From Alphaproteobacteria bacterium (lineage in GTDB: Bacteria; Pseudomonadota; Alphaproteobacteria; Rhizobiales; JAJFHR01), in the NCBI GenBank assembly GCA_024278055.1, contig JAJRTY010000001.1, positions 21,211-85,210 of the forward strand: 64,000 nt of DNA, in the 5' to 3' direction. The translations under genes and the position numbers were made by a program. The first letter of the stretch is position 1, and the number at the start of each line of letters is the position of its first letter. Under the pieces are notes generated by a model. That model was not told the origin of the DNA. It made no database searches and saw only the letters and a program-made list of their open reading frames with translations. Positions 9,018 to 53,932 of this stretch are shown one piece after another.

Positions 9018-10964
9018 TTGGCATCCAGGGTGAAATTTTCATTAAGTTATAAATCCAGAGCCGTGGTGATTTTTTTCCTCGATCTGGTTTTTGCAGCCGT
9101 TTCTCTACCGGTTGCTCTGGCCTTGCGACTGGGGCCTGACGAGCTTTTGAAACCGACCATCGGCTGGACCAATTTTGGCCTGTACCTGATTGTGGTTACC
9201 ACCGTTTTGCTGGCGTCTCGCCTCCACCGCATTAGCTGGCGTCATATAACCCTGAGTGACACTATCGTCATTGGCCGCTATGTGGTTGCGGTTAATCTGG
9301 TTTTTCTCGCCGCTCTTTTTATGATTGACCGGGGGGCGAATTTCCCGCGTACAACTGTCATCATAAACACATTGACCCTGGCCGCCATCATGGTCTTTGC
9401 CCGCGTGCTCTATCGCCTGCTCAAAGAGCATCGGCTGATTGATGTTTTAGGCTCCATGACAGACGCGCAAAAAGGCAGTGGTGAGCCGGTGTTGCTGGTT
9501 GGCAGCGGCAATGAAGCCGAAGCCTTTATTCGTCATATCGAGCGTGACGCTGCCGGGCCTTACGCAATTGTCGGCCTGTTAACGCGGCGTCCGAAAATGG
9601 TGGGAACCTGGTTACGCGGCGTCTCAATTGTCGGCCAGATCAGTGATCTTGAAGCTGTGATTGAAAAACTGGAACGCAAGGGCAGGCGGCCCACCAGTCT
9701 GATTATAGCGGCATCAGACGTTCCCGGTGTCAATATTCAGGAATTGTTTCGTGCAGCTCAACCTTTGTCGCTTTCGGTTAAACGCCTGTCACGCCCCGAT
9801 GAATTCAAAGGACCCAACGCCAAGAAGTTTGAAGTGGGACCTCTGGCCCCGGAGGATTTGCTGCGCCGCATCGAAGTCCCTCTCGAGATGCACAAGATCG
9901 AGGAGATGATTAAAGATCGCAGTATTGCGGTTACCGGCGCTGGTGGCAGCATCGGTGCCGAACTGGTGCTGCAAATAGCCGAGCAAAAGCCCGGACATCT
10001 GACCTTAATAGATAACAGCGAGTTCAATCTTTATCTGATCGACAAAAAACTGAAGCAGTTGAACCCTGGTTTTGACTGGAGTTGTATCATCGGCGATATT
10101 CGCGATCGCGACACCATGTTCAGGATTTTCAGGAAATCAAAGCCTGATATGGTGTTTCATGCCGCCGCCCTCAAACATGTTCCCCTGCTGGAGGAAAATC
10201 CCGAAGAAGGCGTTTTGACCAATGTGGTGGGTACCAATAATGTAGCCGATGCCAGTGTCGAAACCGGTGTCGCCTTGATGGTCTTGATATCCAGCGATAA
10301 AGCCGTGTCCCCGATTAATATTCTTGGTGCCACCAAAAAAATTGCTGAATCCTATTGCTGCGGTCTTGATGCTGATATGAATAAAATCGGCGGCACAAAA
10401 ATCATGACAGTGCGTTTTGGCAATGTGCTGGCATCCAGCGGCTCTGTTGTGCCGCTGTTTAAGGAACAGATTGAAAACGGCGGGCCGGTGACGATCACCC
10501 ATAAGGATGCCACCCGTTACCTGATGACCATACGCGAAGCCGTGCAGCTTATTATCCAGGCCTGTCTGTTGTCCAACGGCGATCGCCAGGCCCGTGGGAT
10601 TATTGTGCTTGATATGGGTGAGCCGGTCAGGATACTGGACCTTGCTTATCAGCTTATTCGACTGTCCGGCATGCGGCCGGAAGAAGATATCGCCATTGAA
10701 TTCATTGGTCTGCGACCGGGAGAACGGGTTCATGAGCAGCTTTTTAACGACAATGAAGAACACAGCGTCACCGAAAATGAGAATCTGTTTTTGGCCAAAT
10801 CAAATGTTGCCGATTTTGGCATTACCAACCGTTACATTGTTTCCCTCGAAGCCGCGGCCACATCAGGCGCACGAAAAGAGGTCTTGAGGTTGTTGTCGAC
10901 AGTGATGTCAAATGACATGCCCGGTGAGGCTAACCCAACCTCCAGTACCAAAGGTCCTAGATAA
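9018..10964 (+). CDS. Polysaccharide biosynthesis protein, FlaA1/CapD-type nucleotide-sugar epimerase/dehydratase (TTG start)
   Basis: N-terminal TM segments, AVTGAGGSIGAELVLQIAEQKP Rossmann motif, FHAAALKHVPLLEENP. Confidence 0.92.
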   Translation: MASRVKFSLSYKSRAVVIFFLDLVFAAVSLPVALALRLGPDELLKPTIGWTNFGLYLIVVTTVLLASRLHRISWRHITLSDTIVIGRYVVAVNLVFLAALFMIDRGANFPRTTVIINTLTLAAIMVFARVLYRLLKEHRLIDVLGSMTDAQKGSGEPVLLVGSGNEAEAFIRHIERDAAGPYAIVGLLTRRPKMVGTWLRGVSIVGQISDLEAVIEKLERKGRRPTSLIIAASDVPGVNIQELFRAAQPLSLSVKRLSRPDEFKGPNAKKFEVGPLAPEDLLRRIEVPLEMHKIEEMIKDRSIAVTGAGGSIGAELVLQIAEQKPGHLTLIDNSEFNLYLIDKKLKQLNPGFDWSCIIGDIRDRDTMFRIFRKSKPDMVFHAAALKHVPLLEENPEEGVLTNVVGTNNVADASVETGVALMVLISSDKAVSPINILGATKKIAESYCCGLDADMNKIGGTKIMTVRFGNVLASSGSVVPLFKEQIENGGPVTITHKDATRYLMTIREAVQLIIQACLLSNGDRQARGIIVLDMGEPVRILDLAYQLIRLSGMRPEEDIAIEFIGLRPGERVHEQLFNDNEEHSVTENENLFLAKSNVADFGITNRYIVSLEAAATSGARKEVLRLLSTVMSNDMPGEANPTSSTKGPR

Positions 10965-12322
10965 TGACACACACTCCAAGTGCAGTAATTATCCTTGCTG
11001 CGGGCAAGGGGACCAGAATGAAGTCGACCAAGGCCAAAATCCTCCATGAGATTGCCGGCCGGCCCATGGTTTTGCATGCGCTTGATGCCGTTGACTGCCT
11101 TGAGCCACAAAAGAAAATTGTTGTCGTCTCGCCGGATATGGATGAAGTAACCCGGGTAGTTGTGGCCAAGGATGATACGGTCGAAATTGTCATTCAGCCC
11201 AAAACCCTTGGCACCGGCCATGCCGTTCAATGCGCCGGTGAAGCATTAGCGGATTTCAGCGGCAATGTTATCGTACTTTTCGGCGACACTCCGTTGATGA
11301 CGGCACAAACGTTACAGCGCTTTAATGACCTCATGCAGTCTCATGATGTCGGCGTCATTGGTTTCAGGGCCGGAAACCCTACAGGTTATGGTCGTCTGAT
11401 CCGCGATGGCAGCGGCAACATCATTGCTATAAGAGAACATAAAGACGCGAGTGCTGATGAACGTGACATTGATTTCTGCAATTCCGGTGTGGTCGGCATG
11501 GCAGGAAAAGATTTTCCAACCCTGATTGAGGCGCTGAGCAACGACAATGCCAATGGTGAGTATTACCTCACCGATGTGATTGAAATTGCAGCTTCACTCG
11601 GGCTAAAAGTCGGGGCGATAGAATGTAATGAGGAAGAAGTTCTTGGCGTCAATACACAAGCCCAACTAAGCACCGCCGAAGCCATATATCAAAATCGCGC
11701 CCGCGCCCGCGCCATGGAAAATGGTGTTCAGATGGTTGCGCCCGCCACGGTTTATTTCAGCCACGACACCGTCATAAAATCCGATGTGCTGATTGAGCCC
11801 AATGTTGTGTTCGGCCCCGGTGTTTATGTGTCCAGCGGCGCTACCATCCGCGCATTTTGCCATATAGAAGGCGCATTGATCGGCAAAAATGCCATTGTCG
11901 GCCCCTATGCCAGGCTGCGTCCGGGAACGGTTTTGTCTGAAGCGGTAAAAGTCGGGAATTTTGTCGAAATCAAAAATGCTGAAATCAGCAAAGGTGCCAA
12001 GGTGAATCACCTGTCGTATGTGGGCGATGCAAAAGTGGGGGCAGCGGCCAATATCGGTGCGGGTACGATCACGTGCAATTATGATGGCTTCAACAAGCAT
12101 CTGACAGAAATAGGCGAGGGCGCTTTTATAGGCTCCAACTCCTCGCTTGTTGCCCCTGTTCGTATCGGTGACGGCGCTTATGTGGGGTCAGGCAGTGTTA
12201 TTACCAAAGATGTAAACCGGAATGCCCTGGCTGTTGGCCGCGGCAAGCAAAAGAACATCGACGGTTGGGCCGAAACCTATCGATCCAAAAACGTCAAAAA
12301 CAAAAAAGTGGCAAAGGACTAA
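10964..12322 (+). CDS. glmU: Bifunctional UDP-GlcNAc pyrophosphorylase / glucosamine-1-phosphate N-acetyltransferase
   Basis: ILAAGKGTRMKSTKAKILHEIAGRPM, hexapeptide repeats, GAGTITCNYDG; start overlaps preceding stop (TAATG). Confidence 0.97.
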   Translation: MTHTPSAVIILAAGKGTRMKSTKAKILHEIAGRPMVLHALDAVDCLEPQKKIVVVSPDMDEVTRVVVAKDDTVEIVIQPKTLGTGHAVQCAGEALADFSGNVIVLFGDTPLMTAQTLQRFNDLMQSHDVGVIGFRAGNPTGYGRLIRDGSGNIIAIREHKDASADERDIDFCNSGVVGMAGKDFPTLIEALSNDNANGEYYLTDVIEIAASLGLKVGAIECNEEEVLGVNTQAQLSTAEAIYQNRARARAMENGVQMVAPATVYFSHDTVIKSDVLIEPNVVFGPGVYVSSGATIRAFCHIEGALIGKNAIVGPYARLRPGTVLSEAVKVGNFVEIKNAEISKGAKVNHLSYVGDAKVGAAANIGAGTITCNYDGFNKHLTEIGEGAFIGSNSSLVAPVRIGDGAYVGSGSVITKDVNRNALAVGRGKQKNIDGWAETYRSKNVKNKKVAKD

Positions 12323-12326
12323 CCTC

Positions 12327-14150
12327 ATGTGTGGAATTGTCGGCATTATTGGAACCAGTCCCGCAGCACCGCGTTTGCTCGATGGTCTTAAGCGTCTGGA
12401 ATATCGCGGCTATGATTCAGCCGGTATTGCCACGTTGGAAAGCGGCATTCTTAAGCGTCGCCGCGCTGCCGGAAAACTGTGCAACCTGGAAAAGCTTGTG
12501 CAAGCTGAACCCTTGTTCGGCTCCATTGGCATCGGCCACACAAGATGGGCGTCACACGGCGCCCCCACCGTTGGCAATGCGCACCCGGTTGCAGCGGGCT
12601 GCGTTGCTGTTGTTCATAATGGTATTATCGAAAACTTCCTTGAGCTGAAACGCCAACTTGAAAGCGAAGGAAAAATATTCGAAACCGAAACTGATACCGA
12701 AGTCGTGGCCCAGCTTCTCGCGGTTGAAATTGAAAACGGATCCAGTCCCAAAGGTGCTGTGAGCGCAGTTCTGCCACGCCTTCAAGGCGCTTTTGGCCTC
12801 GTCATGCTGTTTGATGGCAACACAGAAGTTTTGATTGGTGCGCGCAAAGGCAGTCCGCTGGCGGTGGGCCGGGGTGAAGGTGAGATGTATCTGGGGTCAG
12901 ATGCCATTGCGCTTGCGGCTTTGACCAATCAGGTGATTTTCCTCGACGATGGTGACTGGGTCGTCTTAACGCACCATACCCATGAAATATTTGATTTTTC
13001 CGGCAATCCGGTTGAGCGGCCATGGCAACAGACTTCAGCGTCGGCGGCGATGATCGACAAAGGCAATCACCGCCACTTCATGGTCAAGGAAATCTTTGAA
13101 CAACCCGAAGTTATTGGCCACACATTAGCCAATTACGTTGATCTGGCCGCCCGAACGATTAAACCCGCTGCCTCCGATCTCGATTTCGCCAATCTGCCCC
13201 GTCTCACCATAAGTGCGTGCGGAACGGCTTATTATGCCGGCATGGCGGCTAAATACTGGTTTGAAAAATATGCCCGCCTGCCGGTTGATGTCGATATTGC
13301 CTCCGAGTTTCGTTATCGCGAAGCACCCCTGGCCGAAGATGGCCTCGCCTTGTTCATATCGCAATCCGGCGAAACTGCTGACACTTTGGCAGCCTTGCAA
13401 TATTGCAAGGATTCCGGCCAGAAAATCGCCAGTATAGTCAATGTGCAGGAATCTACGATTGCGCGGGCGAGTGATGTTGTAATTCCAATTTTTGCCGGCA
13501 CCGAAGTCGGCGTTGCCTCAACCAAGGCCTTTACCTGCCAGTTGACGGTTCTGGCCTGTCTGGCCATTGCGGCGGGTCGCGCCCGCGGGCATTTAAGTGC
13601 GGAAGAAGAAAACGACCTGGTGGCATCCCTGATTGGCGTACCGCGCCATGTGGCTGAAATCACCAACCGCAGTGACGAGATTCACGATGTGGCAAAACGT
13701 ATTGTCAGTGCCCGCGACATTTTGTTTCTGGGGCGTGGCATCAATTACCCCATCGCTCTGGAAGGTGCATTAAAACTCAAGGAAATCTCCTATATTCACG
13801 CTGAAGGCTATGCGGCTGGTTAACTAAAACACGGCCCCATCGCTCTGGTCGATGACAATGTACCGGTAATCATCGTCGCACCGCGCGATAATCTGTTTGA
13901 AAAAACTGTCTCCAACATGCAGGAAGTTGCTGCGCGCGGCGGTCAGATAATCATGATAACCGATGCTGACGAGCGCAACGGTATCGGTACCGAATTGTTC
14001 GATCTCATTCACGTGCCCAAAGCTGATGCCTTTATCAATCCGCTCCTGTATGCCATTCCGGTACAATTGCTGGCCTATCACGCTGCCGTATTGCTGGGAA
14101 CCGACGTGGATCAGCCACGGAACCTGGCTAAATCCGTAACAATCGAATAA
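12327..14150 (+). pseudogene. glmS: Glutamine--fructose-6-phosphate aminotransferase interrupted by an in-frame TAA at 13821-13823
   Basis: MCGIVGIIG N-terminal Ntn and SIS domains up to HAEGYAAG, then TAA, then same-frame LKHGPIALVDDN...LAKSVTIE up to 14150; read-through length would be about 607 aa. Confidence 0.9.
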
Positions 14151-52602: not shown

Positions 52603-53932
52603 CAGTCTTGCCGCCAGAACGCTTGTGGTGTTGATCCTCGGGCTGGCGCTGTCGCATGCAATTTCCATTGCGCTTTACACCACTGACCGCTCCGAAGCCC
52701 TGGTTTCGATCGATGGAAGACATATTGGCGAGCGTATTGCGACGGTTGATCGACTGACCCAGGGTTCTTCGCCGAGTGACCGCCAGCGGTTGGTAAACCT
52801 TGCCAGCGACGCCGGTTTCAAAGTGTCCACATCGCCTGTCAGCGCCATTGAAAAACAGACTCAAACGTCAGAGCAGATTTCAAGGTTGCGAGATTCCCTG
52901 ATATCTCACCTGGATGATGAGCCAAACCGAAAAATTCGCCTGCGCTATATGGACATGAAACCGGAAAATGCGGATGATGTTGTCGGCAAAACAGTCAAAA
53001 CTGTGATGATTTCCATATCCCAGAAAGGGGAGAACTGGCTGAATTTTGCCGTATCTCTGCAACCTTCAAAACCATTCTGGTCTTTTCGCTATACGCTTTC
53101 GATGCTGGTGATGCTGGGTGCAGTTGCTTTCTTTTCGTCAGTTTTTGTACGACAATTAACGCAACCTTTGCAACAGTTTGCCCGCGCCTCGCAGCAACTG
53201 GGAGTGGATGTTGCCGCCCCGCCGCTTCCTGAGCGTGGGCCGCTGGAAATACGCCTTGCCACCCAGGCCTTCAATCAGATGCAACGGCGAATTCGTCGCT
53301 TCGTTGAAGACCGAACGCAAATGATCGCCGCTATTTCCCATGATCTTGGCACACCGATTGCCCGCATGCGCCTGCGCGCCGAGTTTGTCGATGATGCAGA
53401 GCAACAACATAAGATGCTGGCTGATCTTGAACACATGGAAAAGATGGTTTTTTCAGCATTGTCATTTGCCCGTGACGATTCAGTCCGCGAACCCGTGGCA
53501 AAGGTCGATTTCAGAACCATGCTACACCGTGTTTGCGACGATATCAGCGATGCCGGGTTTCAGGTATCCCTGACAATTGATGACAAAACCCTGGCCTGCA
53601 ATTGTCGGCCGGTAGCTTTGCGGCGGGCCTTGAGCAATCTTGTCGAAAACGCCGCAAGATATGGTGGTGAGGCCCGGGTTTCACTGGTAAAACAAGATGA
53701 TGGCATCGTCGTGACCATAGACGATGACGGACCAGGCATTCCACAAGACCGCCACGAAGACGTTTTCAAACCATTTTACCGCCTGGAAACCTCCCGCAGC
53801 CGCGAAACCGGCGGCACCGGCCTCTGCATGACCGTAGCCCGCTCAACCATCCGCGCCCACGGTGGGGATATTGTATTAAGCAACCGTGATGAAGGCGGCC
53901 TGCGCATGAAAGTTTATCTGCCGACTGTTTGA
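52583..53932 (+). CDS. Sensor histidine kinase (EnvZ-like)
   Basis: Two TM, HAMP, ISHDLGTPIARMRLRAEF, DDDGPGIPQ, GGTGLCMTVARSTIRAHGG; overlaps the RR by 20 bp. Confidence 0.94.
   Translation: MKRLIPDSLAARTLVVLILGLALSHAISIALYTTDRSEALVSIDGRHIGERIATVDRLTQGSSPSDRQRLVNLASDAGFKVSTSPVSAIEKQTQTSEQISRLRDSLISHLDDEPNRKIRLRYMDMKPENADDVVGKTVKTVMISISQKGENWLNFAVSLQPSKPFWSFRYTLSMLVMLGAVAFFSSVFVRQLTQPLQQFARASQQLGVDVAAPPLPERGPLEIRLATQAFNQMQRRIRRFVEDRTQMIAAISHDLGTPIARMRLRAEFVDDAEQQHKMLADLEHMEKMVFSALSFARDDSVREPVAKVDFRTMLHRVCDDISDAGFQVSLTIDDKTLACNCRPVALRRALSNLVENAARYGGEARVSLVKQDDGIVVTIDDDGPGIPQDRHEDVFKPFYRLETSRSRETGGTGLCMTVARSTIRAHGGDIVLSNRDEGGLRMKVYLPTV

Follow-up and report, generated by a model that had tools for sequence, protein, structure and literature searches.

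An in-frame TAA in glmS of an alphaproteobacterial draft genome belongs to a genome-wide class of nonsense codons that are probably base errors

The gene glmS is essential and encodes a cell-wall sugar enzyme. Described GlmS proteins (glutamine--fructose-6-phosphate aminotransferase; NCBIfam TIGR01135; PDB 1JXA, 2J6H and 4AMV) carry an N-terminal Cys nucleophile motif, two sugar-isomerase domains and a C-terminal LAKSVTIE, and glmU is located directly upstream in known systems. In-frame stop codons within conserved genes such as this one have two kinds of described counterpart. Draft genomes with error loads are common, and base errors in draft and metagenome assemblies present themselves, in a fragmented genome, as single-base nonsense codons scattered among conserved genes and missing from close relatives. 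Genuine recoding likewise places canonical stop codons in frame within conserved genes: in bacteria, a screen covering more than 250,000 genomes reported only UGA (read as Trp or Gly) and, through Codetta, arginine-codon reassignments (PMC8629427), while in the nuclear code of Blastocrithidia UAA and UAG are read as Glu, UGA is read as Trp and UAA also serves as the stop, with about 2 % of all codons being in-frame UAA (PMC12153298).

The glmS gene studied here lies within a window of 64,000 nucleotides (the whole stretch of DNA that was analysed), which is part of contig 99 (85 kb) of the draft genome of an uncultured bacterium, designated here as G000. The draft comprises 3.57 Mb in 217 contigs, with a completeness of 97.5 % and a contamination of 6.5 %. 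Among named glmS genes, the nearest are Hyphomicrobiales-like, with an identity of ≤66 %, and the source genome is alphaproteobacterial. The reading frame (12327..14150, + strand) consists of 607 codons and a final TAA with one interruption, and was identified by its match to the NCBIfam glmS model and by alignment to Escherichia coli GlmS. With the stop read through, the model match spans positions 1-607 at 765.5 bits (cut-off 418) with one TAA inside. The frame thus resembles known GlmS proteins in its full length and in all of the hallmarks listed above, and its upstream neighbour (10964..12322, + strand), an intact open reading frame ending 4 bases 5' of the glmS start, is one that we take, from its translated sequence and established knowledge, to be glmU. 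It differs from them in a single in-frame TAA at codon 499 (13821..13823, + strand), which replaces the conserved Glu of the AAGELKHGP motif: the translation reads ...HAEGYAAG-TAA-LKHGPIALVDDN...LAKSVTIE-TAA and is otherwise open to the native C-terminus. In the E. coli alignment, the stop corresponds to Glu501 (mature numbering), three residues before His504. Termination at this TAA would give a product of 498 residues lacking the equivalents of the catalytic residues His504 and Lys603, both of which are encoded in the 108 codons 3' of the stop (13824..14147, + strand); judging from the sequence, a protein containing these residues would require that the stop be an error or be read through.

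Comparison with two same-genus genomes, G001 and G002, indicated that the stop is recent. Glu occupies the position in all relatives aligned and is encoded by GAA in both same-genus genomes; the TAA differs from the sister codon in its first base alone (G>T), while the adjacent CTA is common to both. The glmS region of G001 is 88 % identical to that of the window at the nucleotide level, and the identity is similar on either side of the stop (87.3 and 88.9 %), so the gene is not chimeric. Upstream of the stop, G000 and G001 differ by 135 silent and 35 amino-acid codon changes, while from the stop to the end of the gene, where the sequence is conserved with respect to G001, they differ by 33 synonymous codons and one non-synonymous codon. 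By this latter ratio, the stop is too young for decay of the gene to have followed it. An earlier note on this DNA had placed an in-frame TAA at the Glu of this motif, one base from a sense codon, in a frame conserved to LAKSVTIE; it had given the E. coli numbering of the lost residues and argued from the intact downstream part against an old pseudogene, and on all of these points it was borne out. In a near-complete genome from another genus of the same order (G013), glmS (L044:1761-3584, minus strand) carries an in-frame TAG at the Glu of a TDTEV motif.

A profile search of the draft genome yielded no intact second glmS in G000, which removes, within the draft, the suggestion of the earlier note that a very recent lesion is tolerated through a second copy. 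Apart from the interrupted gene, glmS is represented solely by a tail of 107 amino acids, with 62 % amino acid identity to the native protein, at the start of a 3.4 kb contig, C118; it was rejected as a second glmS because it is the tail of a contaminant gene. C118 was assigned to a contaminant, another alphaproteobacterium, since a separate copy of the membrane-protein gene that neighbours glmS is also present on it.

To establish the extent of such interruptions, 783 kb of G000 (22 % of the draft) was scanned, with 829 kb of G001 as a control, by codon scoring, gene-by-gene comparison, an in-frame-stop-tolerant gene finder and inspection of the candidates it gave. In G000, in-frame stops were found in about 25 genes, including kdsD, tolB, radC, flhA, glpK, cmk and sat, as opposed to about 0-2 in G001. 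When restricted to well-supported mid-gene stops, the gene-by-gene comparison gave seven in 85.6k codons of G000 and one, at codon 11, in 89.1k codons of G001. Comparison of aligned codons revealed GAA>TAA in glmS, kdsD, an M20 peptidase gene, a glutamine-synthetase-like gene and radC, TCG>TAG in an iron alcohol dehydrogenase gene and TGG>TGA in tolB; an eighth stop, a TAG in hemF, falls in a variable N-terminal stretch where G001 has Asp. The other core genes of the 85 kb contig are free of in-frame stops, as are the full-length rpoB, rpoC, carB and clpB matches of other relatives (up to 30 genomes) and the listed ABC ATPase domains of G000 and G001; among ABC permease domains of G000, a whole-genome family search identified two of 70 with a TAA, the second of them at C33:16273-16896. 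The statement in the earlier note that no other core gene has an internal stop therefore holds for the contig and fails genome-wide, and its picture of an isolated, notable glmS lesion gives way to a genome-wide class of nonsense codons that the sister genome lacks.

In ten or eleven of these genes the stop is a TAA at a Glu position, while stops of other kinds account for roughly a dozen. TAA codons at Glu were located in kdsD (L163:15476, on contig C200, at the Glu of an SGET motif and found in the profile search that was run for glmS), the M20 peptidase gene (L163:17420, also C200), the glutamine-synthetase-like gene (L182:2640), radC (L185:17321), flhA (L197:11580), gst (L199:10743), marR (L166:1403), glpK (L174:8431) and usp (L176:4700); in the contig numbering of the draft, examples of TAA sites are C200:15476, C200:17420, C144:12640 and C179:27321. 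Where a same-genus reference residue was available, eight of nine TAA stops fell on Glu, opposite GAA in glmS, kdsD, the M20 peptidase gene, the glutamine-synthetase-like gene, radC and flhA and opposite GAG in gst and marR; the ninth, in hutU, is Asn in the same-genus reference (Asn or Arg among the sequences fetched). The TAA of glpK corresponds to Glu in three solved glycerol kinases and that of usp to Glu in distant homologues, the only ones at hand, and the stop in a ccoG-like gene is at what we take to be a Glu position. The TAA codons of sat (Ser or Gln in solved homologues), cmk (Asn or Ser) and an ABC permease at C178:13213 (Tyr) were not counted as Glu. Further in-frame stops lie at L165:6403, L182:5427, L190:12367, L197:18872 and L188:7242 and 7497, the last two in one gene and within 260 bases of each other; these stops include a TGA in place of Trp in tolB, a TAG in place of Ser in the iron alcohol dehydrogenase gene, a TAG in place of Trp in katG and a TGA in cheR. 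A presumptive Lys>TAA at L190:209 was discarded, as it lies in the 5' leader of a gene, followed by a ribosome site and ATG. On contig C200, an apparent frameshift near L163:19645, in a gene intact in G001, follows the M20 and kdsD stops at distances of 2.2 and 4.2 kb, respectively, and forms a local cluster of lesions with them.

The glmS TAA is probably a base error in the assembled consensus, the living cell probably carrying GAA. According to this explanation, the consensus of this fragmented draft would contain some 25 single-base nonsense errors at scattered sites, with a bias to G>T; the real codon 499 would be GAA and GlmS would be made normally. We infer that base errors, due to miscalls, damaged DNA or thin coverage, make up the whole class, as opposed to true mutations, since many contigs contain stops of this kind, a number of single-copy genes that are normally essential are interrupted at once, the stops are of mixed kinds (at Glu, Ser and Trp; TAA, TAG and TGA) and no route by which they might be tolerated was found among the tRNAs and release factors. 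The genes glmS, kdsD, tolB and cmk are normally essential or single-copy, and true lesions in all of them together are hard to expect. The frequency of drafts with errors and the lack of any known UAA reassignment in bacteria also place base errors first. The earlier note had listed a base error among its options, and this option now appears the most likely. An excess of nonsense of several kinds over a close relative, as found here, is in agreement with error-laden assemblies; the locus departs from them in that no matching excess of same-class missense changes or of frameshifts accompanies it.

This departure was quantified by comparison with G001. Across 33.6k codons whose surroundings are identical, five nonsense changes of the G>T/C>A class occurred in G000 and none in G001, whereas radical missense changes of the same class numbered five and nine, respectively; about 21 extra radical missense changes would be expected from the nonsense rate, and the error model loses 5.3-5.8 log-likelihood units. 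In a same-context control with equal site numbers, G000 showed five GAR>TAR changes and no single-step GAY>TAY (Asp>Tyr) change. Frameshifts were equal (two in each genome). At 2198 invariant positions of five proteins, private substitutions numbered four in G000 and seven in G001, and GAA-context differences in other frames stood at 42 versus 50; neither of these two comparisons discriminates between the explanations, the second being too weak. Based on five to eight nonsense events and a single relative, the missense and frameshift tests are taken as a warning against the base-error explanation, not as proof. A general G>T error was also sought in the direction of the non-synonymous differences from G001 (T|G 174/175, A|C 229/232), a measure subject to GC drift between the genomes and suggestive only; it was set aside in favour of the stronger conserved-context test. 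At window position 53825, the Gly of a TGGTGLGMTVARS motif in a histidine-kinase-like sequence is replaced by Cys (TGC, where G001 has GGC), which may be a missense error that likewise arose by G>T. The residues replaced present a further difficulty: of all single-step routes to a stop codon, Glu codons supply about 19 % here (by codon counts), and Glu accounts for eight of the 12 stops of all kinds with a same-genus reference, more than a uniform error spectrum would predict. This skew is marked, yet would be expected if the changes were mostly G>T; the error explanation does not fully account for it.

A real lesion of very recent origin in the population sampled, survived through uptake of amino sugars or confined to a subset of cells and accompanied by a burst of gene loss in the lineage, comes second in our ranking and is improbable. 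The single base change, the conserved downstream sequence, the number of genes affected and their mild clustering (kdsD and the M20 peptidase gene 2 kb apart, then the frameshift) are all consistent with it, but glmS, kdsD and cmk are normally essential and single-copy, transitions should dominate among real mutations, and true decay would have brought the frameshifts and missense changes that are not in excess. A mis-assembly, in which the 3' part of glmS came from a different organism and the stop arose at the junction, is very improbable: the start of C118 (L009:1-3366) does fall, in its own glmS, one codon 3' of the position equivalent to the stop, which shows that breaks in this conserved stretch occur in assemblies, but no 15-base word is common to C118 and the glmS region of the window, the two flanks of the stop are equally close to G001 and the gene order continues.

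Ranked third, and doubtful, is a part-time reading of UAA as Glu by a suppressor, with TAA remaining a stop at gene ends, so that GAA>TAA changes are near-silent and accumulate and GlmS is made by read-through. The concentration of TAA on Glu, including glpK and usp, speaks for this possibility, as does an excess of nonsense that is shared neither by radical missense changes of the same class nor by frameshifts; real mutations would otherwise favour transitions, at CAA, CAG and TGG codons. A precedent for UAR read as Glu while UAA is also a stop exists in Blastocrithidia (PMC12153298), and the suppression considered here would be comparable to an early stage of that code: G000 resembles it in having TAA mostly at Glu, one TGA at Trp and TAA as a terminator; it differs in that in-frame TAA amounts to about 0.1 % of GAA codons, in that no cognate tRNA-Glu was found, and in that its TAG codons fall on Ser and Trp with no clear Glu case. 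Compared with known bacterial recoding, the frequency is far lower and the bulk of the stops are UAA, a codon absent from the listed bacterial reassignments (PMC8629427). Of the features expected of recoding, TAA at Glu in many genes was observed, but neither a cognate tRNA, nor a release-factor change, nor avoidance of TAA. No tRNA with a UUA anticodon was present among the 36 tRNAs found with Rfam and ARAGORN in a draft without several expected tRNAs, and a pattern search of the draft (about 97 % complete) from anticodon to T-arm for a suppressor tRNA was empty. The single tRNA-Glu of the draft has a UUC anticodon and a normal 5-bp anticodon stem, the RF1, RF2 and ArfB frames are intact, and genuine stops are most often TAA (304 of 713 gene ends), which is slightly more used at gene ends than in G001 and has no back-up stops added. 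Suppression would also leave about a dozen stops unexplained, namely TAG at Ser and Trp, TGA at Trp and TAA at positions that are Asn or Gln in homologues. Wholesale reassignment of TAA is unlikely given its stop usage, the intact release factors and the tRNAs found; the earlier note had reached the same view, although its own argument, from the lack of other internal stops, proved wrong genome-wide. The top anticodon-stem pair of tRNA-Gln(CTG) (L188 / L154) is C-U, leaving a 4-bp stem, and G-U in G001; 4-bp-type anticodon stems have been linked to stop-codon read-through (PMC13092985). This tRNA would insert Gln, not Glu.

If the TAA codons are base errors, as we consider probable, the draft carries about one false nonsense codon per 30 kb, and single broken genes within it should not be read as biology. 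A natural UAA suppressor inserting Glu, with which UAA would mean Glu inside genes and termination at gene ends, as an early stage of codon capture on which glmS, kdsD and others depend, is a long shot; if the TAA codons are real, however, this would be the first bacterial case of UAA read as Glu, caught before its spread, and the early steps of codon capture would become directly testable.
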